A stretch of 64,000 nucleotides of DNA from Diadema setosum (taxonomy: Eukaryota; Echinodermata; Echinoidea; Diadematoida; Diadematidae): the NCBI GenBank assembly GCA_033980235.1, contig CM067070.1, forward strand, positions 31,268,594 through 31,332,593, in the 5' to 3' direction. Position 1 is the first letter of the stretch; the number at the start of each line of letters is the position of its first letter. Below are positions 1-64,000 of the stretch, piece by piece. The position numbers and the translations under genes are program-made. A model generated the notes under the pieces. That model was not told the DNA's origin. It searched no databases and saw nothing but the letters and a program-made list of their open reading frames with translations.

Positions 1-87
1 ATATTAACGCATATACTAATATTTATTTATAGCCTACATAATGCTCAAGAGGTGATTAGATTTGCCTTCTTTTCCTCTTTACTACAG

Positions 88-138
88 GAAATGCACCTCG
101 ATACAAACTCTAACGTCATTCCGGGAAAGCGTGATCCG
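88..138 (+). CDS. Tandem cassette exon, copy 1: EMHLDTNSNVIPGKRDP
   Basis: This is a 51-nt exon flanked by a pyrimidine-rich acceptor (CCTCTTTACTACAG) and a donor (GTAAGGAATG). The reading frame enters and leaves in phase 0, so any number of copies splices without a shift. The 17 residues end in GKR-DP. GKR is the classical signal for prohormone convertase cleavage after the dibasic pair and alpha-amidation of the residue before Gly. Joined copies would release DPEMHLDTNSNVIP-amide, with each mature peptide spanning an exon junction. I do not recognise the peptide. The signal peptide and 5' exons are not in the window and must lie to the left. An alternative is a short repeat in a structural protein. 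The exon structure is well supported; the peptide-hormone role is inferred. Confidence 0.72.
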
Positions 139-346
139 GTAAGGAATGAGTATGAACGCACCAACGAGGACTCGCTTGCAATATCATCTATATTACAGCG
201 ATAACAATGACACATTTTAACTATATTTCTGTAGTATAGCACACGAATATAACCATAATAATCGTATTCACATGTATTATATTAGTGCAAATATATTCAA
301 GAGTTAATTGCTCTATTTTGCGTTCTTTTCCTCTTTACTGCATCAG

Positions 347-397
347 GAAATGCATCTCGACACAAACTCTAACGTCATTCCGGGAAAACGTGATCCG
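347..397 (+). CDS. Tandem cassette exon, copy 2
   Basis: Same 51-nt exon and same 17-residue product as copy 1. It differs at three bases, all third codon positions and all silent: CAC to CAT (His), GAT to GAC (Asp), AAG to AAA (Lys). The acceptor is CATCAG, with a three-base insertion relative to the other copies. The donor is GTAAGGAATG. The following intron carries a long (TA)n run. Confidence 0.72.
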
Positions 398-504
398 GTA
401 AGGAATGAGTATGAACGCACCAGTGGAGACTTTGCTTCCTTATTCTCTTTCTGTTCTTTTCTCTTTCTCCTTAAATATACCAGTCTTTTCTCTTTCTCCC
501 TCTC

Positions 505-508
<4 letters not shown>

Positions 509-552
<44 letters not shown>
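509..552. repeat. (TA)n microsatellite
   Basis: About 22 TA dinucleotides in the intron after cassette exon 2. The Tyr/Ile-rich open frames across it are artefacts of the dinucleotide. Confidence 0.97.
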
Positions 553-554
<2 letters not shown>

Positions 555-682
555 AATAAACACACGCACAAAAACACATATAATATAATATAACATATAA
601 TTTTATTTTAATGTATGATATTAGTCTCCAAAAATGCAAGAGGTAATTGCTCTTTTTTGCGTTCTTTTCCTCTTTACTGCAG

Positions 683-733
683 GAAATGCACCTCGATACA
701 AACTCTAACGTCATTCCGGGAAAACGTGATCCC
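683..733 (+). CDS. Tandem cassette exon, copy 3
   Basis: Same exon with two silent changes from copy 1 (AAG to AAA, and the last codon CCG to CCC). The donor is GTAAGGAACG because about 10 bases of intron just after the splice site are deleted. The acceptor is CTCTTTACTGCAG. The exon length of 51 nt is unchanged although the intron around it carries indels. Confidence 0.72.
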
Positions 734-833
734 GTAAGGAACGCACCAGTGGAGACTTTGCTTTCTTATTCTCTTTCTGTTCTTTTCTCTTTCTCCTTAA
801 ATATACCAGTCTTTTCTCTTTCTCCCTCTCATT

Positions 834-851
834 ATATATATATATCCTCTC

Positions 852-900
<49 letters not shown>

Positions 901-908
901 TATATATA
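834..908. repeat. (TA)n microsatellite, interrupted
   Basis: Two TA runs separated by CCTCTCAT in the intron after cassette exon 3. This is the same position in the unit as the run at 509-552. Confidence 0.97.
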
Positions 909-1041
909 AACCAATAAACACACGCACAAAAACACATATAATATAATATAACATATAATTTTATTTTAAGGTATGATATTAGTCTCCAAAAATGCAAGAG
1001 GTAATTGCTCTTTTTTTACGTTCTTTTCCTCTTTACTGCAG

Positions 1042-1092
1042 GAAATGCACCTCGATACGAACTCTAACGTCATTCCGGGAAAGCGTGATCCG
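1042..1092 (+). CDS. Tandem cassette exon, copy 4 (last seen)
   Basis: Same exon with one silent change (ACA to ACG, Thr). The acceptor is CTCTTTACTGCAG and the donor GTAAGAAATG. Only 29 bases after the exon end the repeat unit is broken by the Harbinger transposon at 1122. No fifth copy is visible on the far side of the transposon, so this is the last copy to the right. The array probably continues to the left of base 1. Confidence 0.7.
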
Positions 1093-1137
1093 GTAAGAAA
1101 TGAGTATGAACGCACCAGTAAACGGGGTTTCACACCG

Positions 1138-1395
1138 GGCTTTGCGTACAGTTGCGTAGAGTTGCGTAGCTTCTACGCCGAAATTACCTGCGTACTCATG
1201 AAAAATAATCATGATGCTACGCGTAGGACTGGCGTAGTCCCGGCGTAGTCCAGGCGTAGAGTTACGTATGGTTGCGTAGGAAGCACGTATCCGCGTAGCG
1301 TATTTTGCGTATAGCGGGCATACAGTTGCGTATATATACGTAGGCCGGGCGTACAGACCGCGTAGAGTTGCTTGCAGTTGCGTAGAGTTGCGTAC
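1138..1395. repeat. Left subterminal cluster of GCGTAG/TACGCAA motifs
   Basis: More than a dozen copies of GTTGCGTAG-like heptamers, in both orientations and spaced 5-20 bp apart, fill the left end of the Harbinger element. Such subterminal clusters are typical transposase-binding arrays. The exact function here is inferred. Confidence 0.75.
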
Positions 1396-1823
1396 CGCCG
1401 ATTTATTTGTTTGATTTTGTTTGATAGATACTTTATTTTCTGCAAATCAACATACATAAGTAGATTTAAAACACAGTCGTTTGACTTGCATTAACAACGA
1501 TATGATAGGAAATTAATGAAATAATATACAGTAGCATGTCTATGCTGCAGGGATTACAATAACAATTGTAATTAAGAAGCGATTATAACAATTGTAATTA
1601 AGAATCGATTTATTAACAAATTAATGAAACTGCGGAGCTACTTCAGCACATTAGCCTTCTGCTTTTTAGTTCACTCTTGCATGCTGTTCGAATACGTAGC
1701 AAAATGTAATGGGGGAGGTTATATCTTTAATTCCTCAGCATTTTGGACGCCCTACAGATTCGCATCGCAGAATGCGAAAGTTTTAAAGAACGGAAAAAGA
1801 GAAGAAAACAAGCTGTTGCAACA

Positions 1824-2673
1824 ATGAGAAGGAGAGTGTGGATCAAACCTTGGATCCGGCGTTGATCCATACATCGGCAATATGAACAACTGATGAAAGA
1901 ACTGCATGCCGAAGATTTTTCTTCATTAAGATAATCAATTTCATGCGGATGGCGCCACAGGTATTCAATTAACTCCTGACACGAATTGCACTGAGAATTA
2001 CAAAACAAGATGCCAACTTCTGGAATCTTTGGAACCTGAAACCTGCCGTAACTTTAAGGTTTACAATACCTACAAGACCCTACAATATGGATTTCGATTT
2101 GCTTATAAACATGTTGTCATCAAGAAACCTGAAAACACCTGAAATTTGTTTTATAATTTCAAAGGTTTCTTCGCGATTAAAAGGGATGGCTAGTAACTGA
2201 TCAGTGGGAATCAGTGGGAATGCTAGGGGATGATTGTTTAAATCTTTGTGGGATTCGTTTAATAGAGCATTATCTGTTGTTGTGTGAAAATTATTTGCTT
2301 CAAAATAGTCTCATATTCAAGTAATGTGCAGTTTGATATTTCCAGGTTAGCATGCCTGGACAGTAACGGGGCGATCGTTAACGGGTCGTTAACGATCGCA
2401 CCGTGTTCAGCCAGAGCCCTTTCAAGACAGCCATTAAGCCATCAAACTGAACCTCCCTGCAGCAGACCCTCTGCCCCATGATGACCATGCAGCCATTTGA
2501 CTACTTCCTTGTGGGAGATGATGCTATTGCGCTGAGGACTTGGCTGATGAAGCCTCTGTCATTTTGTGGCATGACTCGCCAGCAGCGAGTCTACAAGTAT
2601 AGGCTTTCACGAACCAGACGGGTTGAAGAAAATGCGTTTGGGTCTACTCTTGCTGGCGAATTGTCTGCATTTT
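1824..2673 (+). pseudogene. PIF/Harbinger transposase remnant, broken
   Basis: Recognisable pieces lie in order but in different frames and with stops. An N-terminal piece begins MRRRVWIKPWIRR and stops. It is followed by YEQLMKELHAEDFSS, FMRMAPQVFN, a stop, then TRIALRITKQDA. After the MITE insertion comes a DDE-domain piece in the frame of 2478-2673 with [17 protein letters not shown] and [15 protein letters not shown], both signature blocks of the Harbinger transposase family. At least two in-frame stops, a frameshift near 2470 and the insertion mean it cannot encode an active enzyme. Confidence 0.8.
2179..2402. mobile_element. MITE family A, half copy inside the transposase
   Basis: It begins AAAGGGATGGCTAGTAACTG and runs into a GATCGTTAACGGGTCGTTAACGATC dyad at the centre of the full-length element. 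Only the left arm is present. It matches the full copies at 3343-3779 and 12303-12663. Confidence 0.75.
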
Positions 2674-2917
2674 GATCACTAGAGGCATGTATAATGAGCA
2701 GGAGAATTCTTGTTCCTACCACACCTTTTGTTCTTCCTTTTCGGCATTTTACAATACGCCTACAGAAGAGAAATAGTTAAGTGCAAGTCTCGAAGAGCAC
2801 AGGTAAGTAGGCTATACATTCACCAGCAATTTAGAGTCCAATGGAATGAATGATATCAAGCAGTTTTCTAACATGGGTCAGGCATTTGAATGCCAAATCT
2901 GCACCTATAATAATAGG

Positions 2918-3310
2918 CTGCGCAACTGTAAGCAACACTACGCAAATGTATGCCAGGCCTACGCAAGTCTACGAAAATGTACGCCAAGTCAACGCAAGTC
3001 TACGCAAATGTCTACGTAACAGTACGCAACACTACGCCATGTCATACGCGAGCACAAAAAGTGCTCTGGTGTGAAAGGGGTTCGGTGGCGTACTGTTGCG
3101 TGTAGATGGCGCACAGTTGCGTAGTATTGCGTAGACTTGCGTAAAACCTGCGTATCAGAGCTCTACGCGGAGGGTACGCGAAAAAATTAAACATGTTTAA
3201 TTTTTTGCGTACATCTTCCGTACCTATTTTGCGTCCCTCGGCGTATAGTGGCGTAGTGTTGCGTAGTCACTACGCAACACTACGTAACACTACGTAACTC
3301 TACGTAAAGC
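2918..3310. repeat. Right subterminal cluster of TACGCAA motifs
   Basis: This mirrors the left end. TACGCAA/ACGCAAC motifs run from about 2918 to 3056, switch to TTGCGTA orientation at about 3085-3150, and return as CACTACGCAACACTACG near the terminus. The orientation switch marks a nested end. Confidence 0.72.
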
Positions 3311-3342
3311 TTGGTGTGAAACCCCCTTAAGGTCAATCCCTA

Positions 3343-3779
3343 TTAAAGGGGCATTATGGCTAGTAACTGATCAGTGGGAATCAATGGGAATGCTGGGGGA
3401 TGATTGTTACAATCCTTGTGGGATTCATTTAAGAGTACATTATTCACTATTATTGTGTGAAAATTATTTGCTTCAGAATGCTCTCATATTTAAGTAATGT
3501 GCAGTTTAATGTTTCATAGTTAGCATCCCTGTATAGTGACGGTGCGATCGTTAACGGGCCGTTAACGGGCCGTTAACAATCAACCCGTCACTGTACAGGC
3601 ATGCTAAACTGGAAACATTAAAAACTACATATGAGACCATTCTGAAGCAAATAATTTCCACACAACAATAGATATATATAATGTACTATTAAATGAATCC
3701 CACAAGGATTGGAACAATCATCCCCCAGCATTCCCACGCACTGATTCCCACTGATCAGTTACTAGCAATCCCCTTTAAC
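3343..3779. mobile_element. MITE family A, full palindromic copy
   Basis: A foldback element of about 437 bp. The left arm (TTAAAGGGGCATTATGGC, then TAACTGATCAGTGGGAATC) is complementary to the right arm ending GATCAGTTACTAGCAATCCC and CTTTAA. The centre carries repeated CGTTAACGGGC. The ends suggest a TTAA target site. It has no coding capacity. Confidence 0.85.
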
Positions 3780-4402
3780 ATATCTGGATGTTAGAGTTAC
3801 ATCTCACGGTTCGTAGAATCAATCACCCCTGTTCAATCCTTCCTTGTTTTTGCTTTTGTTTCTGCTGACGTTGATTATTAATTCTTCACGTAAATGGAGA
3901 CAATGGTATTTTTCTAGCTTTTTGTAAGTAAGAAAAATCAAATCTTTCCATCACCTAACAAGAAATATCATTTAGATATATAAGAAATTATCAAACACAT
4001 TATTTTCTCTGCTTTCATCAGCTTCAATCTCAAATATCCCAGTTTGATATAAATTGATGTATATTTGTATTAGTTTTTCATATATATTCTTCTCTTGATC
4101 GCAGAAATATTATTGATTGTAATGTTACCATAGTTACCTTAGTAATGTGTAACTGGATTATACTACAACCACACTGCCAGAATTACATGACATTGTCATC
4201 ATTCACACTGATCTGATCAAAGATGTTGTGGTCGCAAGTTAGTGACTCAAGTTAACATGATTTAATTTTATATTGCATATATGACTACCTTGAATGTAAA
4301 GTATTCGATTTTTTCTTGGAGTTCATAAAAAGGTGAACTACAAACGATCTATGTATAGACATTGATGAATGCATTACAGCTTTCCTTATTTCCTATTTAT
4401 AG
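3780..4402. other. AT-rich non-coding interval
   Basis: I see no gene, repeat family or strong structure. If the exon at 4403 belongs to the cassette-exon gene, this is intron. Confidence 0.5.
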
Positions 4403-4568
4403 ATCTCTGCCTAGAAATCTTCCGGAGCCGACTGAACCAAGCTTGTCATACCATGCATACGGTACGGAAGGATCCCATCAACTACGCCTGAGCCGTGATG
4501 ACTTGTCCCGTTATCTCTTTAATCCACGGCCGGCATCACTTCGTCCTGTACAATCAACTATCATATAG
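4403..4568 (+). CDS. Candidate terminal exon, Ser/Arg/Pro-rich, ends TAG
   Basis: A strong acceptor (TTTCCTTATTTCCTATTTATAG) is followed by 166 nt with balanced codon use and no stop until TAG at 4566-4568. The frame gives SLPRNLPEPTEP near the start, RLSRDDLSRYLFN in the middle and ASLRPVQSTII at the end. It is the next plausible plus-strand exon after the cassette array, so it could be the 3' exon of that gene. In this frame its first base completes a split codon, whereas the cassette exons end in phase 0, so another exon would be needed between. A second frame (phase 1) is open for about 27 codons. The function is not recognised. Confidence 0.35.
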
Positions 4569-5485
4569 ACGAAAATTAAAATTTATTGACGATACTAACA
4601 CAGTGGTATATTGTTCTCGTTACACCAAATGTTATCGCTAGTTGTTTTTTTTTTTTTTCATTGAAGAACCCTATCGCATCAGCATCCTGCTTATCTAATG
4701 AAGTGAAAGTGTTTAATTGAGCAGTGTCTCTCTGTTGATAAGAAAATTTCCAATACCGGCGCTTTGGTGGTATATCCCCATGCATTCAAACAGAACAATC
4801 GCACCGTTGACGGTCTGGTAAAAGTAGTGCACAACTTGTAAACGATAGGATACGACATAAACAATGCTGCTACTCTACGACATTTTCCCAGTCTGTTTTT
4901 CAACCATGTTACGCACCACTTTTTTTCTCCCTTTTTTCTGGGTAAAAGAACAATATTATCTTTTAATAGTTATCTCATTTCCCTACAGTTTCATAATTCC
5001 GAGTGTTGTTGTTGTTGGTTTTTTTTTTTTTTTTTTTTTTTTTTGCTTTCTACCGTATTCATTACCTACATTTGTCTAAGATAATTGAAAATTATAGACT
5101 TTCTGAACATACTACACACATGATTGAACAATGTGAGCGGTGATTGTATTCGTACGAATTTTAGTTTATCCGTTTATATCTTCTGTTTTTACGCTCAAAT
5201 CCCCTTTTATCCCTGAATTCACGATGATTATAATCATAAATGATTTTGATTAGTGCAAACATGTTCAAGTCATAGAGGCATACGCCTACAGTGCTTGATC
5301 ATGAAAATAGTTGCCGTTTAGGTAGGAAGTACACATTCTATAACAACTTATTGGGTATATGTTTTCCTCATTTTTATCATTATGTTTATGAGACGTCCTC
5401 CATATCAACAATGTATTAAACGTTATCATGCTCATGTAACTTTACATTATACAGATGGTGACTGGCGGGGGAGGGAACATACCGA
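4569..5485. other. AT-rich non-coding interval with T runs
   Basis: It contains poly-T runs near 4645 and 5020-5044. I see no gene or repeat family. Confidence 0.5.
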
Positions 5486-5489
5486 ATGT

Positions 5490-5594
5490 TCCACCCGAAG
5501 GGTTTGAAATGCTATTGAGGGAGGTTATAAGTCCCGAGACGAAGTCGAGGGACTTATAGCCTCCCGAAATAGCATTTCAAACCCTGAGGGTGGA
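5490..5594. repeat. Near-perfect hairpin with about 45-bp arms
   Basis: The left arm has CCACCCGAAGGGTTTGAAAT and GGTTATAAGTCCC. The right arm is its complement, with GGGACTTATAGCC and ATTTCAAACCCTGAGGGTGG. The loop is GAGACGAAGTCGAG, itself partly self-complementary. It looks like the core of a foldback element. Confidence 0.8.
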
Positions 5595-5646
5595 ACGTTT
5601 GCTACATGTTCCTGCGATAACAAAAGTCATCATCTGTTATATTATA

Positions 5647-5898
5647 TGGGTTAGTCAAATACGTCAAATACGTACGTTAACGTCAACCGAACCACCAGCA
5701 CAACGCACTCGAATGCTCGCTCGCGCAGAGCCAAATCCACTGTGTGCGCGCGGTCCTAGGCCTTCTCTCATTATACGTGAAAATGTTTTCCCATGGGAGA
5801 ACATTACAAGAATGTTTGCCCATGGGCGAACATAACGAATGTACCTCCATCACGTGACTGTGTTTAGCCAATCACTAATCGGTATTTGACTAACCCAT
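5647..5898. mobile_element. Short inverted-repeat element (GGGTTAGTCAAATACG ends)
   Basis: The ends TGGGTTAGTCAAATAC and GTATTTGACTAACCCA are inverted repeats about 250 bp apart. The interior has two CCCATGGG palindromes. It directly abuts the family B element at 5899. Confidence 0.65.
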
Positions 5899-6291
5899 TT
5901 AAAGGGATGGTACAGTATTGGTGGAGATGAGAATTGGGCTTTTAACTTTTTACGAGATACCAAGAAAACACTTATGATATAGTACAGAGCATACCATTTT
6001 AAGAGGAATTCAAACTTTATTTGATGAAAATCGGGTTTGGAATGACTGAAACATCCATAAACAAAGTAAAACAAAGCGATCGTAATAAAGTGTGGGTCCC
6101 ACACTTTATCAAAATCGCTCTTTTTTTTTTTATATCTCAGCCATTTCAAAACCAATTTTCATCAAATAAACGTTGAATTCCTCATAGAATTACATGCTCT
6201 TTAATATTTCATAAGAAGTTTCTCATTATCTCACCGAGAAATGTTAGAAACCTGAAATTAGGTCTCAACCAAAACTATACGATCCCTTTAA
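5899..6291. mobile_element. MITE family B, copy 1
   Basis: It starts TTAAAGGGATGGTACAGTAT and ends CTATACGATCCCTTTAA. The arms share TTTGATGAAAATCGG and ATCAAATAAACGTTG blocks around a GTGGGTCCCAC centre. Homologous to 20334-20724, 22500-22812, 53919-54091 and 56415-56821. Confidence 0.82.
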
Positions 6292-6858
6292 TATAATGGA
6301 TTGTTATGCTATAGATCTTATGGAGATATTAGAAAATATCAATAATTATGACAGGTATAAAAAGAATTGAAATCTATGATTTTTACAATAAACAATTTTT
6401 ACCTCCGAAGAAATGTCAGTAGTAAGTCACTGCTTGTTCCGTGATGGCAGTGAAATTGATCAAACAAAAATGATACACATAAAACACCCTGAATACTATT
6501 CCAAGGGTTTATTCTCTTCTATAAGACTTTAATTCCTTACTTGACGTGATATGTCATCTTTTGAAGTCTGCCGTATAGTACAGTAAACTCGTATCAATAA
6601 AGAATAAAACTTCCGTAAATTATGTGAATTATAAACATTACATAATGTTTATGTAATATTTTTTTCAAACATTATAAACTGTGGTTGGCGTACTTTTAGT
6701 TAAAACGAGGATACATTCACACGTAATGAAGCTCAAATTGAGTATCTAACAGGTTAATCGGAGTTATTGGGTTGAAGTTCTTCGTACTTCACATCATTCA
6801 TTGTTCACACGGTTGTATCTAGCTTTGTGACCTAACAATTTCACAGTTTATACATTCA

Positions 6859-6912
<54 letters not shown>
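6859..6912. repeat. (AT)n(GT)n microsatellite
   Basis: An AT run passing directly into about 18 GT repeats. Confidence 0.97.
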
Positions 6913-7347
6913 ACAGTATGTCCCAACAAAATTACAATCAGATTTTCGCATTGATAACACCCAATATGATTAAACTGTCCAAATGCTACACTTCAGGGCC
7001 TTGAAATATAACATCTTAGCTCTATTTAGCAGAAAACCCCATTCAATTTGGTTAAGCGGTCACAGTGAAATGTGGATTGTTGTAAAGCATGTCATGAGTC
7101 TGATTCTTCCAAATTTAGCACTTGATGCTCTTGGAACTGCACATTAATGTGTTAAAACAATAGACAGAACTTGGAGGGAAGAGATTCCCGACATGCTCTA
7201 CAAAATTTCTCATTTCTCTTTGACCACTGAAGCAAATCGAATGGGGTTTTCTGTAAGATGTGGGCAATGAGTTATAGTTTCATACCCTGAAATTGTATTT
7301 GGATTGATTCACTATTTTTAAAGAAATCATTGCGGAGGGTCCCGTTG

Positions 7348-7379
<32 letters not shown>

Positions 7380-7967
7380 CATAGGGTATATATCTTTGAG
7401 TTAATTTTCGCATTTAAAGTCTTCATACAAACATATGAAGACTTAAAATGAAAAAAACAGAAACAATTCCCTTTTATCAACAAGAGAATTCAATATCTGA
7501 GATTGACTCAGCAGAAAAACAAATGAAAAATGACATTTTATGTGATGAATTTATCTTCAAAAACATTTATGTACCGAGTGCAGTAGGCCTATTTAATACT
7601 GAAGATTAATTTTCTCTACTTTGATGACCTAAAAAATGATAATTGAGCTTATGTTGTTGTTTTTTGCATTCAAAGCGAGACAACGTATTATGAATACCAG
7701 CAGGATTTTAGGTAAATGTGTGTGTGTGTGTGTGTGTGTTGGCGGGTGTTTACATTTCATTTGCGCCATTTGTTTTTCAAAACCCCTCGATGCTGAAGGA
7801 ATCCATTCCTATCTAGATAGCTTTTGATTATCACCGACATTATTTTGAGAAAACATGCTGCTGATATCTGAACTTAATGTAACTGGAAGTGTATATCTAG
7901 TCCAGCTATTCAAGCATGATTGTATAGGCCTACTATTGTACTTTTATCGTTGTAATTCTGCTCATGA

Positions 7968-7983
7968 CAAACAAACAAACAAA

Positions 7984-8017
<34 letters not shown>
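7968..8017. repeat. (CAAA)n(CA)n microsatellite
   Basis: Five or more CAAA units followed by about 17 CA units. Confidence 0.95.
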
Positions 8018-8019
<2 letters not shown>

Positions 8020-8120
8020 CCAATGACATAAAATACAGCAATGAACATGTTATCGAATAGAGAGTTGGAACTTATTGCTTAAAACGCTCATAATAATGTA
8101 CCACAGAACACCTTTTAACG

Positions 8121-8355
8121 CTGGTGACACATTCGCTCCTGCGACAATTGCTCCTGTCTTATTTTCTTCAATGATCTAGGGTTAGGGTTCAAATACCTGT
8201 AGACTGATAGGGTTTTAGGTTTCGTTTGATATGAGAAGTAGGATTAGGAATAGGGTTAGGGTTGTGTTTGTGAGTAGAATTTATCTTTGGCTTAGCGCGC
8301 AGATATTACATGGAAACATTATTGTCGCAGGAGCAAAACGTCATGGAACCGTGAA
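8121..8355. mobile_element. Inverted-repeat element with TTAGGG-like interior
   Basis: CGCTCCTGCGACAATTGCTC on the left is matched by ATTGTCGCAGGAGCAAAACG on the right. The interior carries degenerate TAGGGTTAGGG blocks. The telomere-like motif is confined to the element. Confidence 0.7.
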
Positions 8356-8383
8356 CGTTTGTCTCCTGTTTTCACCCTCTTCA

Positions 8384-8404
8384 TTTCACACACACACACA
8401 CACA

Positions 8405-8454
<50 letters not shown>

Positions 8455-8462
8455 AACAAACA
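8384..8462. repeat. (CA)n microsatellite
   Basis: A long CA run with one GA interruption, ending in CAAA units. Confidence 0.97.
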
Positions 8463-8866
8463 CGTGCAAGCGCCATGCTAAGTTTTTCCAAGCTGAAAGA
8501 CAACAACATGAAAGGCAAGAAGAGAAGAATACTTCACCTACAAAGAAAACACAATCAATTTATTCATTGGTTGTCCGGCTGTGTACGACTATAGATCTCA
8601 CTTGATTATTCAGAGGGGTTTCAGTTTAACAATTTTCAGGGTTCTGTCAAAATAAAAATTATGAAATATTTAACAAGTAACAAAGTTAGTCCCAATGACA
8701 AGTCGGGTAGAACACAAGAATTACATTCCGCTTTAGAACATCACCTTTACATTATGAGAAAAAAAAAAAACTATAACAAATAGGGGAAAAAATTCAGAGG
8801 TACTTACTAACAATCCATTATTTTAATGCCCTCACTGCTGAGTCTCACAAAGAAATTAAGAAACGT

Positions 8867-8869
<3 letters not shown>

Positions 8870-8897
<28 letters not shown>

Positions 8898-8908
8898 AAC
8901 AAACAAGC
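8870..8908. repeat. (CA)n(CAAA)n microsatellite
   Basis: CA repeats followed by CAAA repeats, the same composite type as at 7968. Confidence 0.95.
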
Positions 8909-11900
8909 ACACATACATCAACACATCTATACACTTAAAAGGGAGACGCAATGATTAATACTTATCCTAGCACACACACACACACATGAACGAGTCGTCT
9001 TTAAAGAACTTACAATGTTCATACAGAATTGATGGTGTGTTCTCACGATGTACATAATCTGAATGAAGGTTCGTTGAATGGTGAAAGTGAAGTATTAGTG
9101 CACATGTACATTAACTTGTAAAACGGTTGCTTCACGACAAAGACATTGAATCAAACTGAAGTCATTCAAGATGACAGTGTCCAAGCGTCCAAAAACAAGT
9201 AAACAAAAATGAATAAATAAATAAATAATGCATTTTTGTACAGAACTAAGTCAATTTTGATGAATCAGAAACCCTTCCTTTCCAAAAAAGACTTTTAATT
9301 TTGTCATACAGTACTGATTTTGGACCCGCAAGTACAATACAGAACCAATGATATTTCTTAAATTATGAAGTTATTAATATTTGATGAATTTCATCTCAAA
9401 ATTGTTGTGTTTTCTATGGGATGGAACATTTCTGAATTGGGCAAGATTGGGGAAAAAAAGAAGTTCAAGTATCTCATTTATGAGAGCGAGTGAGAGAAGA
9501 AAAAAATACCAGTAAGTATAGTACTATTAAAAAAAAAAAGAATGATTTCACCTTTGATATCTTGCCACAATTTTTATTTTTTTTTCTTAAGAGGAAACTG
9601 TCCCTTTACAAATATAGTATCTCCAAATGAAAGCAAACAAACAAACTGAGAACCAGGAAAACAAAGTAAATTATCACATTACTTGTATTCTGGTGTGTGT
9701 GCTTTTTGGAAGCCGTCCCATACCTCCCTGTTAACTTTGCGCTAATCAGTTTTATCTTTCTTGACGCTTTCAGTCAGCATCTAGTATCCCACGTTTAATG
9801 CATCAGTGCCAACATGTGAGGACAGCTGATGTGGTCTAATCTTATTTTGGCAATAAACTTGGCTTTATTACCCTTGTAGTGAGCACCACTTTGACCCGCA
9901 ATAAAGCATTTATTAGGTGTAGCAAATTACATGACATTAAATGAAGCATGACAAAATGTATATCCTAAATGAGAAGAAAAACAATGGGACAAATTTGGAA
10001 AAATCAAAATATTTCGTCCTGGCCAAACAAAAGTGGAAATATACACAGTTTATCTTTGCTTTCTGTTACTACTTGGACAAACCACAGCATCACTGAACAA
10101 AACAACAATATGACAAATGCAATCATTTTCAACTATACTATTCTATTTCGGGCAGTACTCTTTTTTTCATACTATCTTTTCTAAGACAAATTAAAAGAAA
10201 TTGAAATGTTCTTCTCCTTATCTTTCCATTACCAAAACAGATGGAATAAATCATTTACTTCATTAAATGAATGTCATCACCATTATGTCTATAATATCAC
10301 ATATTATTAACATGTTCAATATATTCCCAAAATGTCATCTAAATAATACCATAGAACTTTGGATGAGTCTTCAATGCCAATCTGAATACAGTCTTCATTT
10401 TTCACGTCTTCCAATTTTTAGCATGCAAACACCAAAAATTGGCCAGACATAATAGCCCTCTTGTAGCTTTTAATTTTGTTAACTTTTTTTTAAAATTTAT
10501 TGCCAAATATTCAAGTTTCACATAAATGGTTTATACCATTTGTACTGAGTGGACATCATAATTTTTCTATGTCAACTAACCTCATCGTGGAGTGAAAAAG
10601 GTTCCAGTCTTTTTCACTATCATATTCATTTACCGGTAGAAATTTTTATTTGGCCTTTTAACCAACACTGCAAGAGTGAATTTATTTTCCTTTTTTTTTT
10701 TTAATCAACTACTGTTACACATAAAACAACTGTGAAATTAAATACATCTTTCTATACAAACACCCAAATGTGTATTTCTACATTATTACTTAGCATAATA
10801 CTTCACAAACATGATACATCAAATCCATGAGTCTACACTCTAGAATTGCACAAACTGCATTGATAAAGTCAAACATACACACTGAGTTTAAACCCAAACA
10901 TGCTAAATTCATCAAGTGCTGAACCATTTTGCTTTGGACAGTATGCATTGGTACATCATTTCAAAGGATGATAAGATATAGCATTCATCCAAATGAATAC
11001 AAGTGTAAAAACTGTTCTCTGTTGATTTCATTTCTTCAGAGGACACAGAAATATGTACAATGATGTCACATGTACACTTGTGTTGTAGGAGGGAATAGAT
11101 TTAGCATATTTGGGGACTTAACTCTTTTAAGTACACAAAAAGGAAAGAAAAAAATCACATCAATGTGTCGTGACACATTCTCAAGTTATACTTTCAGCAT
11201 CTTTGCTGACTCTTCTTCAACTTGAAATTATTCCATCAAAATGTGTATAAGATTAATATCAGAAGGCACCGTTTCTTTAACAGTAGAAAACTTCAGCGGC
11301 ATTTTGTACAAATACATACAATCATCTGAACACACTGAGAAGAACAAAGAAGAAGAAGAAGAAGAGGAAACAAGAATATGCTGTAAATCTAACTTTTAAA
11401 TAAAGACATTTTCATCACTTCCCACCCCCCCCCCCCTGTATATAGATTAAGATATATAAAATAAATGTGAGACATTAAATGTGGCAGGTATTTGACTCCG
11501 GGAAGAAATTAAAACTAAGGATGGCTGTACTTTTAAAGCTGGGTGTGCCACATATGGTCAGTGCCATGGATAACCTATTAAACACACACATACACACACC
11601 AAAAAAAAAAAAAGCCCCATAAGATACACCACTACCCACCAATCAGCACCGCATATCTTTTGTTAAATGTGAAGAATCTCCGCATTTCTTACCAGTGATG
11701 TAGAGTTTACTGGATAAAATTATTACACTGATTCAATAATCCCTACACGCTGAGCATTTCAATAAAATAAACTGCAAACCCTTGTCCGAATCATGAGCAA
11801 TATCTATACGACATGAGTTGGTGCCAAAAATATTTACACTGACTATAATAAATACCTGTACATGTCAAACATCAACATCATCCACAAAAGCAAGCATGAA

Positions 11901-15563: not shown

Positions 15564-15691
15564 TCACACCGTAGACATAGGAAGAGTTTTCTCCATGCTC
15601 ACTGGACGACTGCTGGACGCCGACACATCGCTCTCCGTGTCGTCTGCTGAGGGCCGCCGAAGCTCGTACTCACTGTATATCCCAATGTCCC
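15564..15691 (-). CDS. C2CD2L: C2CD2-type terminal exon, RPSADDTESD motif and stop
   Basis: Acceptor TGATCTCAG. The first two bases complete a codon left by a phase-1 donor, and the exon then encodes 41 residues beginning DIGIYSEYELRR and ending MSTV, with TGA at 15564-15566. The RPSADDTESD segment matches the conserved RPSVDDIES-type acidic/Ser motif of vertebrate TMEM24. In vertebrates that motif precedes the basic region. Here it follows it, so the order of tail modules differs. The upstream intron (to 31488) is unusually long. Confidence 0.8.
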
Positions 15692-29059: not shown

Positions 29060-30859
29060 ATATGTATGTACTTGCATTAATTCATACCATTCAATTCAAA
29101 AAGGATTCTTTTGGTATCATGTCAAGTTGATGATTGCCAACTTTCATACTCTATGAACTTTGCAGCCACAGTGTAAAAAGTAAACTATGCTCTATGCCTG
29201 CATGCATACAGTCATGTATGTGCTATGTTTTAACTAAATTCATCAGATTTGGCATTCTTTTGCTAAAAGTGACATCAAGATGGTATACATATGCAGACAT
29301 TAAGACTAGTATGCTCATTATGTTTAATGTGACTATGAGAGGGGAAATTCACACCACATTCAAGTTGATATTTGATGAATAGAATCAAATCTAACAGACA
29401 GGACAGTGATTCTTTCTGAGAAGTCCTACGAAGGATATGAATGTTCACAAGGAATTCTAAAGTTTTGCACATTTTTAGGAAACAGTAATAACAGTCACAA
29501 ACACATTTTCAAACAAGCATTAGCAATGATATTGCTGCCTTGTAACTCTCCTATTTGTACACCAGAATTAGGCAAGTTATTGAGAAAAAAACAACAAATA
29601 AATGTTGATAATCTAGCAACTATAATCTCTCCCACCACAAGTCATAAACATTACAGTATTTCTACTGTATGTCAAATCAGACACAATTCGAAGGGAAAAA
29701 CTAATCTCTCTTAAAATCTCATTTGAAAGAAGGAGGAATCCGTTAAGATTTTATGCAAGACCACAGAAGACTTCTGAGGGGATGACATCATCACCTAATT
29801 GTATGAGCAAGTGTGATTACAAACAACATCAAGGTTTTGTGAACACAAAGTTCTCAAATACTTTTCCTTTTTCTTATACAGGCTTCACTTCACATGTATG
29901 TTTAATTCTGCTCCATCAAAGTCAGTTTAAATATGGTGAGTGGAGTTCCCCTTTAAGCACTTAAGACTGGCTCTTTTCAGCTACCTACACTATTATATCA
30001 ACACTGTGTGCCTGCTTCCCCATGATATCTGAGAACTGGGCCTTTACACAACTCTTCCAATTTTTCAATGTCAATTCCGTTTTGATCTCAATGTAATGAG
30101 CATCTGATGAAAAGCACTACTTATCATACTTCCAAGAATGAAGGCACTGTCACCACTAAAGTTGATCACTTTCCCGGATACATTCTGCAATTTTGGTTTC
30201 ATAACACTTACAACTTGTCAGTAATTAGTTACCCACAAACTGGTTGTACCTTCTGCGGTACCACAAAGATGCTGGATTTCTAAAGTGATGGACAATTCAG
30301 TGCGACACCAGTTCAGCAGGGGAAACAAGCATCGTAGAGTTTCTCTAGACTAATGCTACAACTGTGTGCATTCACGAGAAAATGAGGCTGTTGTTGACAA
30401 TATACACATCTTATCTTGCCACGTCATGCATGGTTACTTTTTGGCGAAACTTTTCTGTGAAGACAAAGATTGGAGCAGCCCTGTATCACAGCACTCGTGT
30501 CTAAATCTTATGCCTCAGCACCTTCATGTATCATGCAAGCATGTTGCGCAACTATTGGGCAAATAAAAGATAGAAAAAAAAGATAACTACACATACATGT
30601 AGGTAAAGGAAGCGAAAAAAAAAAGGGCCTACATCGTTGGTGAAATGAATCTCTCCTTGGTAGTTCCATGGGGCCAGAGGAAAATCACTCTCACATTCCA
30701 AAAGGCAACATAGCTCATTAACCCCTTTTATCCTGGAACCAGTTGTGCCATGTACATGTACAAATTGTACAATGTATGCACATGACAATACATTGTACCT
30801 CTGAGGAGGAAACAGGTTAATCTGTCCATGGCCTTTTGAGGTGGAGTGCCCTGGGACGG
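29060..30859. other. Intron, AT-rich, nothing recognised
   Basis: No exon or element supported. Confidence 0.5.
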
Positions 30860-49030: not shown

Positions 49031-49123
49031 GATCAGTCAGTAGAAGGAAAACAAAACCTGACCTAAAAAACAAAAAAATAAAAACAAAAACAAATCACAG
49101 AAAATGTCACCATGACAACGTAC

Positions 49124-49271
49124 AATAAGAAGTGTTCATCCCAGAAGGGGTTGGTGGTGTTGACGATGGTGTTTGTCTTGTAGCGTTGCGGTGGTTGATC
49201 CAACATCGCGATGCAGTATGGGTCGCTGCTGCTGCCCCCGCTCCTGACCAACAGACCGTTGGCTTTGATGA
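49124..49271 (-). CDS. C2CD2L: C2CD2-type exon, C2 domain first part
   Basis: Acceptor CCTTGACAG and donor TTATT/GTACGT, phase 1 to phase 2, 148 nt. The donor was chosen because only it leaves the phase the next exon needs; it gives ...PFWDEHFLF+QLNG. It encodes VIKANGLLVRSGG, SSSDPYCIAMLDQPPQ and NTTNPFWDEHFL, the canonical C2 layout. The SDPYC aspartate is present, but the usual first loop-1 aspartate is absent. Confidence 0.92.
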
Positions 49272-49457
49272 CTGTCAAGGAGAAAGGGAAATGACCACTA
49301 AAACTGCCAAATCAAATGAGATGTACTGTACTACAGAACTTCTACACTTAATTATCATTACTTTTTCCTTTCTCTGAACCTTGAGGAAATTTACAGTTAG
49401 CACAAGCTAAATAGATCAAGTTCATCATTTTGGTGTTGCCATACAGTGTAACCACAA

Positions 49458-53647: not shown

Positions 53648-53918
53648 ATCATTGAACTGAAAGAGAGATGGTATATTATACTGAATGCAGAGTTTGTAAA
53701 AGGTCAATGTTCATCTGAAAGTACTTCTATAGCACAAAACAATTACAGTCCTTTCTCTAGATAATTCCATGAAGGAGCCCAATGTTTTCATTGCCATTGA
53801 CTCACAGTTAACTTCTTTTTTTTTTCATTTTCATTTGTTCTTTGTTTTGTTTCATTGTTTGTTCTGTTTTGTGGGCATTTCTTATTTTAGGTTGGGAAGG
53901 CTGAAGGAGGGCAAGTTT
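53648..53918. repeat. Direct duplication, copy 1 (271 bp)
   Basis: From ATCATTGAACTGAAAGAG to GAAGGAGGGCAAGTTT. Nearly identical to 54092-54360. Confidence 0.95.
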
Positions 53919-54091
53919 AAAGGGACTGTACAGTACTGGCTGGGGTGGGGATTCATGTTTTGAACATTCCTAAGTGAGATAATGAGAAACCTCTTATGAA
54001 ATATAAAGAGCATGTAATTTTAAGAAGGTTTCAACGTTTATTTGATGAAAATTGGTTTTCAAATGGCTGAGATATCAAAAAATGTGACAAA
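53919..54091. mobile_element. MITE family B, left-half fragment
   Basis: AAAGGGACTGTACAGTACTG to ATATCAAAAAATGTGAC. Only one arm is present, sitting exactly between the two direct repeats. Confidence 0.8.
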
Positions 54092-54360
54092 ATCATTGAA
54101 CTGAAAGAGAGATGGTATATTATACTGAATGCAGAGTTTGTAAAAGGTCAATGTTCATCTGAAAAGTACTTCTATAGCACAAAACAATTACAGTCCTTTC
54201 TCTAGATAATTCCATGAAGGAGCCCAATGTTTTCATTGCCATTGACTCACAGTTAACTTTTTTTTTTCATTTTCATTTGTTCTTTGTTTTGTTTCATTGT
54301 TTGTTCTGTTTTGTGGGTATTCCTCATTTTAGGTTGGGAAGGTTGAAGGAGGGCAAGTTT
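54092..54360. repeat. Direct duplication, copy 2 (269 bp)
   Basis: Same sequence as 53648-53918 with a few substitutions and small indels. Confidence 0.95.
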
Positions 54361-55900
54361 ACAATAGTATGCTCACACAGTACTCTTTTATCAAACATTC
54401 CACTGATTTACACTCCAGCATCAAGAAAGACGGAGCTAACATCACATTCATTTTGAAAAACTCAGGTAATAGAAATGAATTAAATAAGTCTCAATACCTG
54501 ATAAAAGATATGAAATTCCTTAAAATCATACATGGAAAATGTAGTAACAGATTACGAGCAGACCTGAAAATATGTATTTGGTTGAAAGTACATACATGTA
54601 CACCCATATTCCAGTACCCCTCAAAACATTTCAAATTTACTGATAACTTACATTAAGAAGAGCACTCACATTAATATTTCGGTATGAATTATCAACCTTT
54701 CTATGATTTTTTTTTAGTTATCATTGGCAACCAAGTGACAATATATTGCCTTCTGTCATTTCTGTTATTTCATGCAGTCACAAATGCATTTACTTCATGT
54801 ACTGTACAATACAGTACAACGTACTTTATGCAATGTATGCTCTGAATAAAACATAGTACATTGCCACCAGAACTGGGGCATTCACATTGTTGTGCTGTGT
54901 GTAATTCAAAGCAAATGGAGTGCAAAAATCAATTGATGAACTATTACACAAAGCCAGCCAGTAATGGAGAATAAGATATTTGGAGCACAGTGTTCGATCT
55001 GAAGCGAGAGCGACAACAACATTAAATCTCTGCACTGCTGTCAAACGGCAACACACAGAGCAGTATGGGTAGTGCTGTATGCACACATTATGTGTGTGCT
55101 TCTGGGTGTGTGTATGTATGCAAGTTTGTATACTGTATCATAGCAATAGAAACTAACATTTTGAACACAGACAGTCTGAAGAGGCTAAGAAAAAAACAAA
55201 CAAACAAACATTAAAAGACATAATGATAGCCAGGAGTATCATTTGAAACTGTGACAAATCATGGACAATAAGCATTATATTTCTCAGCTGACAGGTTAAA
55301 ATGCCAGCCTGCATAAAAAATTAAAAGAACTCATATAAGTACACAGAAAGTGACGCAGTCACAAAGGGGAAGGGGTGGAGTGGACTCACAGAGATGAGAC
55401 AGAATGGATAGACAATACAGTGTACCTTTTATTTCATAAAAATATGGATAATGGTTAGCTAAAACCACTTGCACAAATGTAGCATAAAAGGGCAGATGAC
55501 GTGAGAAAGGTAACACACAAGAAAACAACAAAAATAAGCAGGCAATTTTTCAAAAACATGTGTTTGTAGAAAAACAAGAAAAAAAAAAGAAAGAAAAAAA
55601 AGACATTCAGAACAGCAATGCTTGTACTGGTTTAACAAAGAAAAAAAGGACAGATTCTATGGAGGAAAAAAAGATTCAAAATACATTAAGTACAATGAAA
55701 GTGCTTTTAACCCTGTCTACAGCCATGTACCTATAAAGACATTAAACATGAAATAATGACATGAAACTGATAATATGCAAATAGAAATATAGTAAATGAC
55801 AGAAGTTGTGTATCACAACACATATTTGTAGGATTTCTTGCTGAGCAGAATTCAGAACAATCTGTCCCTCACTCATTATCAGCATAAGAAAAGAAAAAGT
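54361..55900. other. Intron, AT-rich, nothing recognised
   Basis: No exon, element or structure supported. Confidence 0.5.
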
Positions 55901-62480: not shown

Positions 62481-63834
62481 TATATTCCTCCATCAAGTCT
62501 CCTACCATTATGCTGGTTGGTAGTCCGGGGCAGTCTTCTAAAAATGTCAGCTGGTAGACCTGCTGCTAAGCACTGACCTAGGAGGATGTGCTGGCCCCCA
62601 CACCAGGGGGTAGCGTGACACAGCTGAGCCCTGGGGGATCAAGGGCTGTGTAGGGAAAGCCTTATTAAAGGTTGAGACATTCCATGACATTCTGCTGAAA
62701 AGGAAAGCAAAACTGTGCATCATCCATATCATTAACTACATCATCCCACATTCTCTTTCGATATCTCTCTCTCTCTTCCTTTCATTTTTATATGAATGTA
62801 TCTGTCTACTTGCTTCTCTCTTGGTTTTTTTTTCTTTCTGTCTCACACTATGATATACTCAATACTTGAATACAACTGCACACTCATGTATACATACATT
62901 CATTTTCATACTGACCTTTATACAGATATTGCAATTGAGAGTTTGCTACGCTACAACATTTTTTCTTTCAATGACATCTTCATGTAAGTGTTCAAATGCT
63001 GACAAAGGCATTTCACTGAATTCTTCTTTAATTTATTAATGAAAATGCACTTTGCTTAGAAGTTGAGGTATGTTATTCCCGTATCAGTATCTTTTATGAA
63101 ATCTGGCTGTAATTTGCTGGAATGAAAGCAACTGCAGTAGAACTGATGAACCTGTAAATTATATTTCTTATTCTATTTCACCTATATAGATGAAAAAAGA
63201 AGGCAAATTACTTGTTACATTTCATTTTCACCATTTCCTGTATGAAATGGGTGGAGTAAGTTCTCAAAACAATATAATTTTTATATTTTCAGAGCTGAGG
63301 TTTAGAAAAACTAAAAATCATCTTTTGCAAACAAACAATCATTTATGATTATATCATGTATCACATAATTCTTAATACTTTGACCAATAGATCATGAGTC
63401 TGACATTTTAGACCAACAGGTAATTGATTGTCTCTTTTTTATTAATTTGTTTGACAGGTTTAAAGATACCCTGTGACTTGGGCCTTTGTTTCAACAGTGG
63501 TAGCATCAAACTGCAAAATACCATCTGAGGGACTGGAATAGAGACCAGCTCAAGGTAACTTAATATGGCAGCTCCGTTGGTAGACAATGTCCAGGCACAC
63601 CAGGTGTGGTCGTTAACATTTGCTGTAAAAAGAGAATTGAATTATCTTCTGCAGCTATAAGGAAAAGCCTTCATGTGCGAAGAAAGCAAAGAAAAGAATT
63701 CTGTTCTCTGAATGTCGGTCACTCAAAACTTGATATCAGCTGTTCCTGTATTTAAAATCTCAGCTGGAGGGGAAATAATGTTTGGTAAAATTTGGAAGGC
63801 TAGTGAAGGAGAAGTCATGCAGTCAAAACACCAT
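62481..63834. other. Upstream sequence, no confident exon
   Basis: A GC-richer block at 62515-62700 has no open frame matching the expected N-terminal SMP sequence. Nothing else supported. Confidence 0.45.
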
Positions 63835-64000
63835 TGTTAGTGCACCATGATTGGTACACCATGATTGGTATACCGTGTTTGGTGCACCATGATTGGTGCA
63901 CCATGACTGATGCACTATGATTGGTACATCATGATTGGTCCACACTGTACACCATGATTGGTATGCCATGTTTGGTGCACCAAGATTAGTGCACCATCAC
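63835..64000. repeat. Minisatellite, ACCATGATTGGTGC units, runs off the window
   Basis: Ten or more 14-16-bp units (ACCATGATTGGTGC/ACACC). Each holds ATTGG, the complement of a CCAAT box, and a partial GGTGCACC dyad. It continues past base 64000. Confidence 0.92.

Follow-up and report, generated by a model that had tools for sequence, protein, structure and literature searches.

The locus considered here lies in the sea urchin Diadema setosum (contig CM067070.1, positions 31,268,594 to 31,332,593 of the forward strand; the whole stretch of 64,000 nucleotides that was analysed is hereafter referred to as the window). Close to its left edge stands a short tandem series of nearly identical exons, and the question raised by them is whether they encode repeated units of a peptide precursor, units of some other protein, or nothing that is expressed. 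A preliminary description had regarded them as cassette exons for amidated peptides, one peptide to an exon.

When both strands of the window were searched for the 51-nt block with a tolerance of at most 16 mismatches in 51 positions, exactly four copies were identified, all read on the plus strand (copy 1, positions 88 to 138; copy 2, 347 to 397; copy 3, 683 to 733; copy 4, 1042 to 1092). Each of the four is directly preceded by CAG and directly followed by GTAAG and, as the preliminary description had stated, begins and ends in phase 0 and translates into the same 17 residues, EMHLDTNSNVIPGKRDP. Tandem exons that are nearly identical, divisible by three in length and matching in phase, as these are, characterise a tandem peptide-exon gene with an architecture of the Xenopus caerulein/magainin type. 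Copies 1 and 2 are separated by an intron of 208 nt (139 to 346, beginning GTAAGG and ending CATCAG), copies 2 and 3 by one of 285 nt (398 to 682) and copies 3 and 4 by one of 308 nt (734 to 1041); the latter two each contain a TA microsatellite and are nearly identical. The start of the next intron (1093 to 1119) is like that of the other copies for about 27 nt, after which the likeness is lost where a repeat element begins. No fifth copy was found in the window by a protein-level scan, in which the next best match scored 25 as against 93, a value inside the range of best scores obtained from shuffles of the plus strand (20 to 31, n = 10). A simple home-made splice-site model, applied to the whole window, placed copies 1, 4 and 2 among the highest of the 33 entries above its cut-offs; copy 3, in which the exon ends in CCC, fell below the cut-offs and is hence unlisted, and an unrelated exon candidate at 29882 outscored the array copies.

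Two other readings of the blocks were set aside, the minus-strand one by eye, splice sites of the right kind being absent there, and a second frame, likewise open through all four exons, because all five of the changes found among the copies would be replacements in that frame. The four blocks are taken to be internal exons of a plus-strand gene, the rest of which probably lies to the left of the first base of the window and possibly to the right as well. Neither a signal-peptide exon nor a supported terminal exon was recognised within the window, which opens 87 bases before the first exon.

Five exon positions vary (9, 15, 18, 42 and 51), and the earlier observation that all of them are third codon positions and silent was confirmed. 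Position 42 separates copies 2 and 3 from copies 1 and 4; the changes at 9 and 15 are private to copy 2, that at 18 to copy 4 and that at 51 to copy 3. Substitutions placed at random in this exon would be silent in 22-27% of cases, which gives a probability of about 0.0005-0.0013 for five silent changes out of five. It becomes 0.0016 when the observed four transitions and one transversion are taken into account, 0.0002 when sites are counted and 0.0026 when codon position alone is considered; all of these are values after the fact, for a feature chosen for looking striking. Silent differences number one to four per pair in about 11 silent sites, which is comparable with the intron divergence, and replacements number zero. 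Similarly, copies 1, 2 and 4 have no non-silent variable sites, whereas about 5.4 would be expected had these exons changed as fast as the intron bases beside them (P about 0.003). Silent-only variation in splice-flanked, phase-0 exons therefore points to selection on the protein, which agrees with the protein-level constraint originally proposed, and the array appears to be a real, selected-looking array of coding exons. A codon-usage model trained on 601 codons gave the array exons -4.0 to +3.0 bits, which is no support for coding; the score of copy 1 is equalled or exceeded by 730 of the 12088 open stretches of 17 codons.

Neutral codon usage of this kind would also suit a tandem duplication that is not, or is no longer, expressed, in which gene conversion or a recent origin would have kept the copies identical and luck would account for the changes being silent only. 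The extension of the conserved block into the 27-28 flanking intron bases, the recent copying of introns 2-3 and 3-4, the start of a transposon-like element 29 nt past exon 4 and the lack of a matching annotated protein among those searched (about 112-1515 aa) are all in favour of such an explanation. Conversion or recency would, however, spare silent and non-silent sites alike, because of which the five silent changes out of five count against both; in addition, stops and frameshifts are found in none of the four copies despite the indels in their introns. An unexpressed duplication is thus considered decidedly unlikely.

The contrast between conserved exons and diverged introns, which formed part of the initial argument for constraint, holds for the intron beyond position -28 and is weak beside the exon. 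Among the older copies 1, 2 and 4, pairwise divergence is 2-8% in the exons, 4-11% in the 27 intron bases just upstream and 7-14% in the 28 just downstream, whereas in the distal upstream intron (-87 to -28) it amounts to 28-45%, which for the pairs with copy 1 is close to the level that unrelated sequences might show when aligned. The exon-adjacent intron bases may be subject to splicing signals or to conversion, and because these bases are also conserved, part of the pattern could be due to gene conversion or splicing constraint.

A comparison of the younger introns with the exons they separate provides insights into how the array grew. Four substitutions distinguish intron 2-3 from intron 3-4, besides several indels, among them a gap of 10 nt close to the donor of intron 3-4 and a difference in microsatellite length. 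Exons 2, 3 and 4 differ pairwise at three to four silent sites (copy 3 at three from each of its neighbours), and at least three silent exon changes at the rate of the young introns would have a probability of about 0.001-0.002, for which an intron length of about 215 was set by hand. The silent excess in the exons over the young-intron rate agrees with a crossover located between positions 15 and 18 of the exon. Copies 2 to 4 probably arose by recent duplication, the simplest mechanism being unequal crossing-over with its breakpoint in the exon. All four exons would descend from one exon by tandem duplication, with selection keeping the protein identical, and exon 3 would combine the start of exon 4 (positions 9 and 15) with the end of exon 2 (position 42) and would have acquired one new silent change at position 51 after the crossover. 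A plain copy of exon 2 with private changes also fits exon 3 when the rate argument is left aside; with it, the crossover is favoured. Copies of very different age sit adjacent in this array, which makes both its growth and a splicing-controlled dose of the peptide directly testable.

To the right, the recognisable array is ended by the transposon-like region (1121 to 3328, no strand assigned), which begins 29 nt after exon 4 and is bounded by 49-nt inverted repeats, 84% complementary. This region holds many GCGTAGAGTTGCGTA-like motifs, and more long inverted repeats (2177-2394 with 3560-3778 and 3385-3456 with 3665-3736; 84-95% complementary) are located partly inside it. Other repetitive features of the window include a direct duplication of about 270 bp (53648-53919 and 54092-54361, 97% identical) and, at 63828-63997, a tandem array of a 14-bp unit, ACACCATGATTGGT, in about 12.5 imperfect copies. 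Much of the window is filled by a gene for a phospholipid transfer protein C2CD2L-like (C2CD2L; minus strand, 15567-53470), and the array sits beyond the 3' end of this gene, on the opposite strand. The C2 exon of C2CD2L (49069-49311) matches Pfam C2 with an E-value of 1.1e-11 and 32 PDB sequences at E <= 0.01. In tblastn, 13 pieces align residues 226-869 of the Diadema antillarum C2CD2L protein with the window, the C-terminus falling at 15567, and residues 1-225 have no tblastn match in the window. At least eight differences between the window and this protein are located away from the edges of the pieces, as would be expected if the stretch comes from a relative of Diadema antillarum or else represents a divergent allele.

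The reading of the array that is most likely but unproven is that its members are internal exons of a multi-copy precursor of amidated peptides, with secretion, cleavage, amidation and splicing all predicted from the DNA; it is regarded here as a serious possibility that falls a little short of being probable. Spliced in phase 0, the exons would give an uninterrupted (EMHLDTNSNVIPGKRDP)n chain, which would be part of a secreted precursor and would be cut after each KR by prohormone convertases. The Gly thus exposed would become a C-terminal amide, and the products would be identical 14-residue DPEMHLDTNSNVIP-amide peptides with a C-terminal prolinamide, for which the calculated monoisotopic values are 1580.737 ([M+H]+) and 790.872 ([M+2H]2+). 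G-K-R, that is, an amidation Gly followed by a dibasic site, is present in all four copies, and the joined chain consists of KR-bounded units with no spacer between them. In a unit of 17 residues, a G directly before K-R would presumably seldom arise by chance (roughly about 1% on the residue frequencies that we assume). All 17 residues are equally conserved and the cleavage site is therefore not singled out. The earlier suggestion that the two halves of each peptide come from different exons had to be abandoned, because the cut site does not coincide with an exon boundary and the upstream exon supplies only D and P of the 14 peptide residues. Since both ends are in phase 0 and the cut site is wholly inside the exon, an exon skipped or added would alter the number of the peptides and not the peptide, and since the exons are identical, their mutually exclusive use would be pointless and dose would be the natural variable.

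A text match of repeat fragments, anywhere in a word, returned none from 5.39 million open-access papers, and the peptide text was absent from the literature searched, in line with the statement of the preliminary description that no peptide with this sequence is known. For egg-jelly sperm-activating peptides, nothing relevant was present among the literature matches listed. If the precursor reading is true, an undescribed peptide is added to echinoderm neuroendocrinology. A broader proposal is that of a new amidated DPEMHLDTNSNVIP-amide family in diadematoid sea urchins, in which each copy would be carried on its own identical, freely skippable exon, the dose would be set by exon number and splicing, and the array would grow via unequal crossing-over inside exons; this combination is put forward tentatively and with considerable doubt.

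Searches for a protein containing the repeat were performed with several queries and, taken together, spanned proteins of about 112-1515 aa, among which the repeat protein was not found at E <= 1. With 12 joined copies as the query, no match at E <= 1 was present among the candidates listed (at least 7997, about 112-357 aa), and with about 2.4 copies followed by a possible terminal exon, none of the 36 candidates (about 296-943 aa) reached E <= 1. A query of three copies joined to the neighbouring C2 exon (about 476-1515 aa) gave six matches, each covering 50% of the query; all six are annotated as C2-domain proteins, the matching gene falls on the C2 side, and none was listed for the repeat. 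The best of these six sea urchin C2-domain proteins is from Diadema antillarum (98% in the half of the query that matched), and because the same database includes some Diadema antillarum proteins, the missing repeat protein is a real point against an annotated gene.

The possible terminal exon is part of an open frame on the plus strand (4359-4565, stop 4566-4568) which ends in PRPASLRPVQSTII before the stop and has a G+C content of 0.49 for 4403-4566 as against 0.29 and 0.36 beside it. It was rejected as the last exon of the gene: the codon-usage model gives it -0.42 per codon (54 codons) and places it at rank 102 among the 344 open frames outside C2CD2L, it has no Pfam, PDB or protein match, and the acceptor that scores best for it does not share the phase of the array.

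Known domains and RNA families were likewise searched for. No PDB sequence matched the repeat at E <= 1, and the five Pfam families returned for it are all below the curated cut-offs. Calcium-binding D-x-N-x-N loops and thrombospondin type 3 repeats were considered and rejected, EF-hand_9 (E 0.23, below the cut-off) being the only such match. Rfam gave no matches at the gathering threshold, and the three plus-strand frames of bases 1-9999 gave Pfam matches only below the cut-off.

A polar unit with no known domain indicated by PDB or Pfam is also what may be expected under a second explanation: real exons under selection, whose product would be an ordinary repeat protein, inside or outside the cell, in which the repeated unit serves as a linker or spacer, probably disordered, and the GKR is incidental rather than a site of processing. 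Structural proteins such as collagens commonly have short phase-0 exons that are nearly identical and stand in tandem, and a linker repeat accounts for the silent-only changes and the phase 0-0 exons as well as a precursor does; that no signal-peptide exon was seen in the window also suits it. The occurrence of G-K-R in a 17-residue unit, uncommon by chance, is left unaccounted for by a linker, nothing else about the unit hints at structure, and the protein searches, which covered lengths to about 1515 aa, yielded no long repeat protein. This explanation, under which the locus would be an ordinary case of exon duplication, is considered rather unlikely. The peptide precursor is thus ranked first, the linker repeat next and the unexpressed duplication after it.

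The view that one peptide per exon would be unusual proved to be overstated, as precedents are described for the Xenopus caerulein and magainin genes, the sea cucumber and brittle star calcitonin-type genes and the Lymnaea FMRFamide gene. The exons of the Lymnaea FMRFamide gene each hold groups of RFamide peptides. The array is similar to this gene in the distribution of its (predicted) peptides over several exons, which are alternatively spliced in Lymnaea (PMC4208409), and differs from it in containing no RFamide. The flp genes of C. elegans have two to six exons, and some of them are alternatively spliced (PMC4196577).

SALMFamide precursors resemble the array in that they give rise to multi-copy amidated echinoderm neuropeptides (predicted, in the case of the array) and contain a phase-0 intron, which in the Asterias precursor follows the signal-peptide exon (PMC9400282). 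Unlike those of the array, the SALMFamide copies are described as lying all in one exon (PMC9400282, PMC4313774). Membership of this family was rejected, since the C-terminus of the array peptide would be NVIP-amide and the SxLxFamide or SxFxFamide ending is absent.

Among echinoderm calcitonin-type precursors, the sea cucumber peptides AjCT1 and AjCT2 are encoded on the third and fourth exons, of which exon 3 can be skipped (PMC12638048, PMC6586643), ophiuroid transcripts carry the peptides on single, skippable exons (PMC5627052), and the C-terminal Pro of calcitonin-type peptides is amidated (PMC4772807). The array shares with these precursors (AjCTP1/2 and ophiuroid) the echinoderm origin and, as predicted, one peptide per exon, skippable exons and the C-terminal Pro (PMC12638048, PMC5627052, PMC4772807, PMC6586643). 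A calcitonin type was nevertheless rejected, as calcitonin-type peptides carry a pair of N-terminal cysteines whereas the 17-residue unit has no Cys; moreover, the two ophiuroid calcitonin-type peptides are non-identical, whereas the array units are all identical.

The caerulein and magainin genes of Xenopus laevis contain tandem peptide-encoding exons that have hardly diverged, and the authors discuss unequal crossing-over, gene conversion and a cheap increase in dose in connection with them (PMC3731216). As in the array, several tandem exons encode almost identical peptide units, and the copy number is considered to change by unequal crossing-over (PMC3731216); unlike the array, these genes specify frog skin secretion peptides with proven transcripts and peptides, and the likeness proposed is one of architecture. 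If the precursor reading is true, the array provides an invertebrate case of the one-peptide-per-exon arrays described for frog skin peptide genes; its architecture is of a known kind, and the peptide itself would be new.
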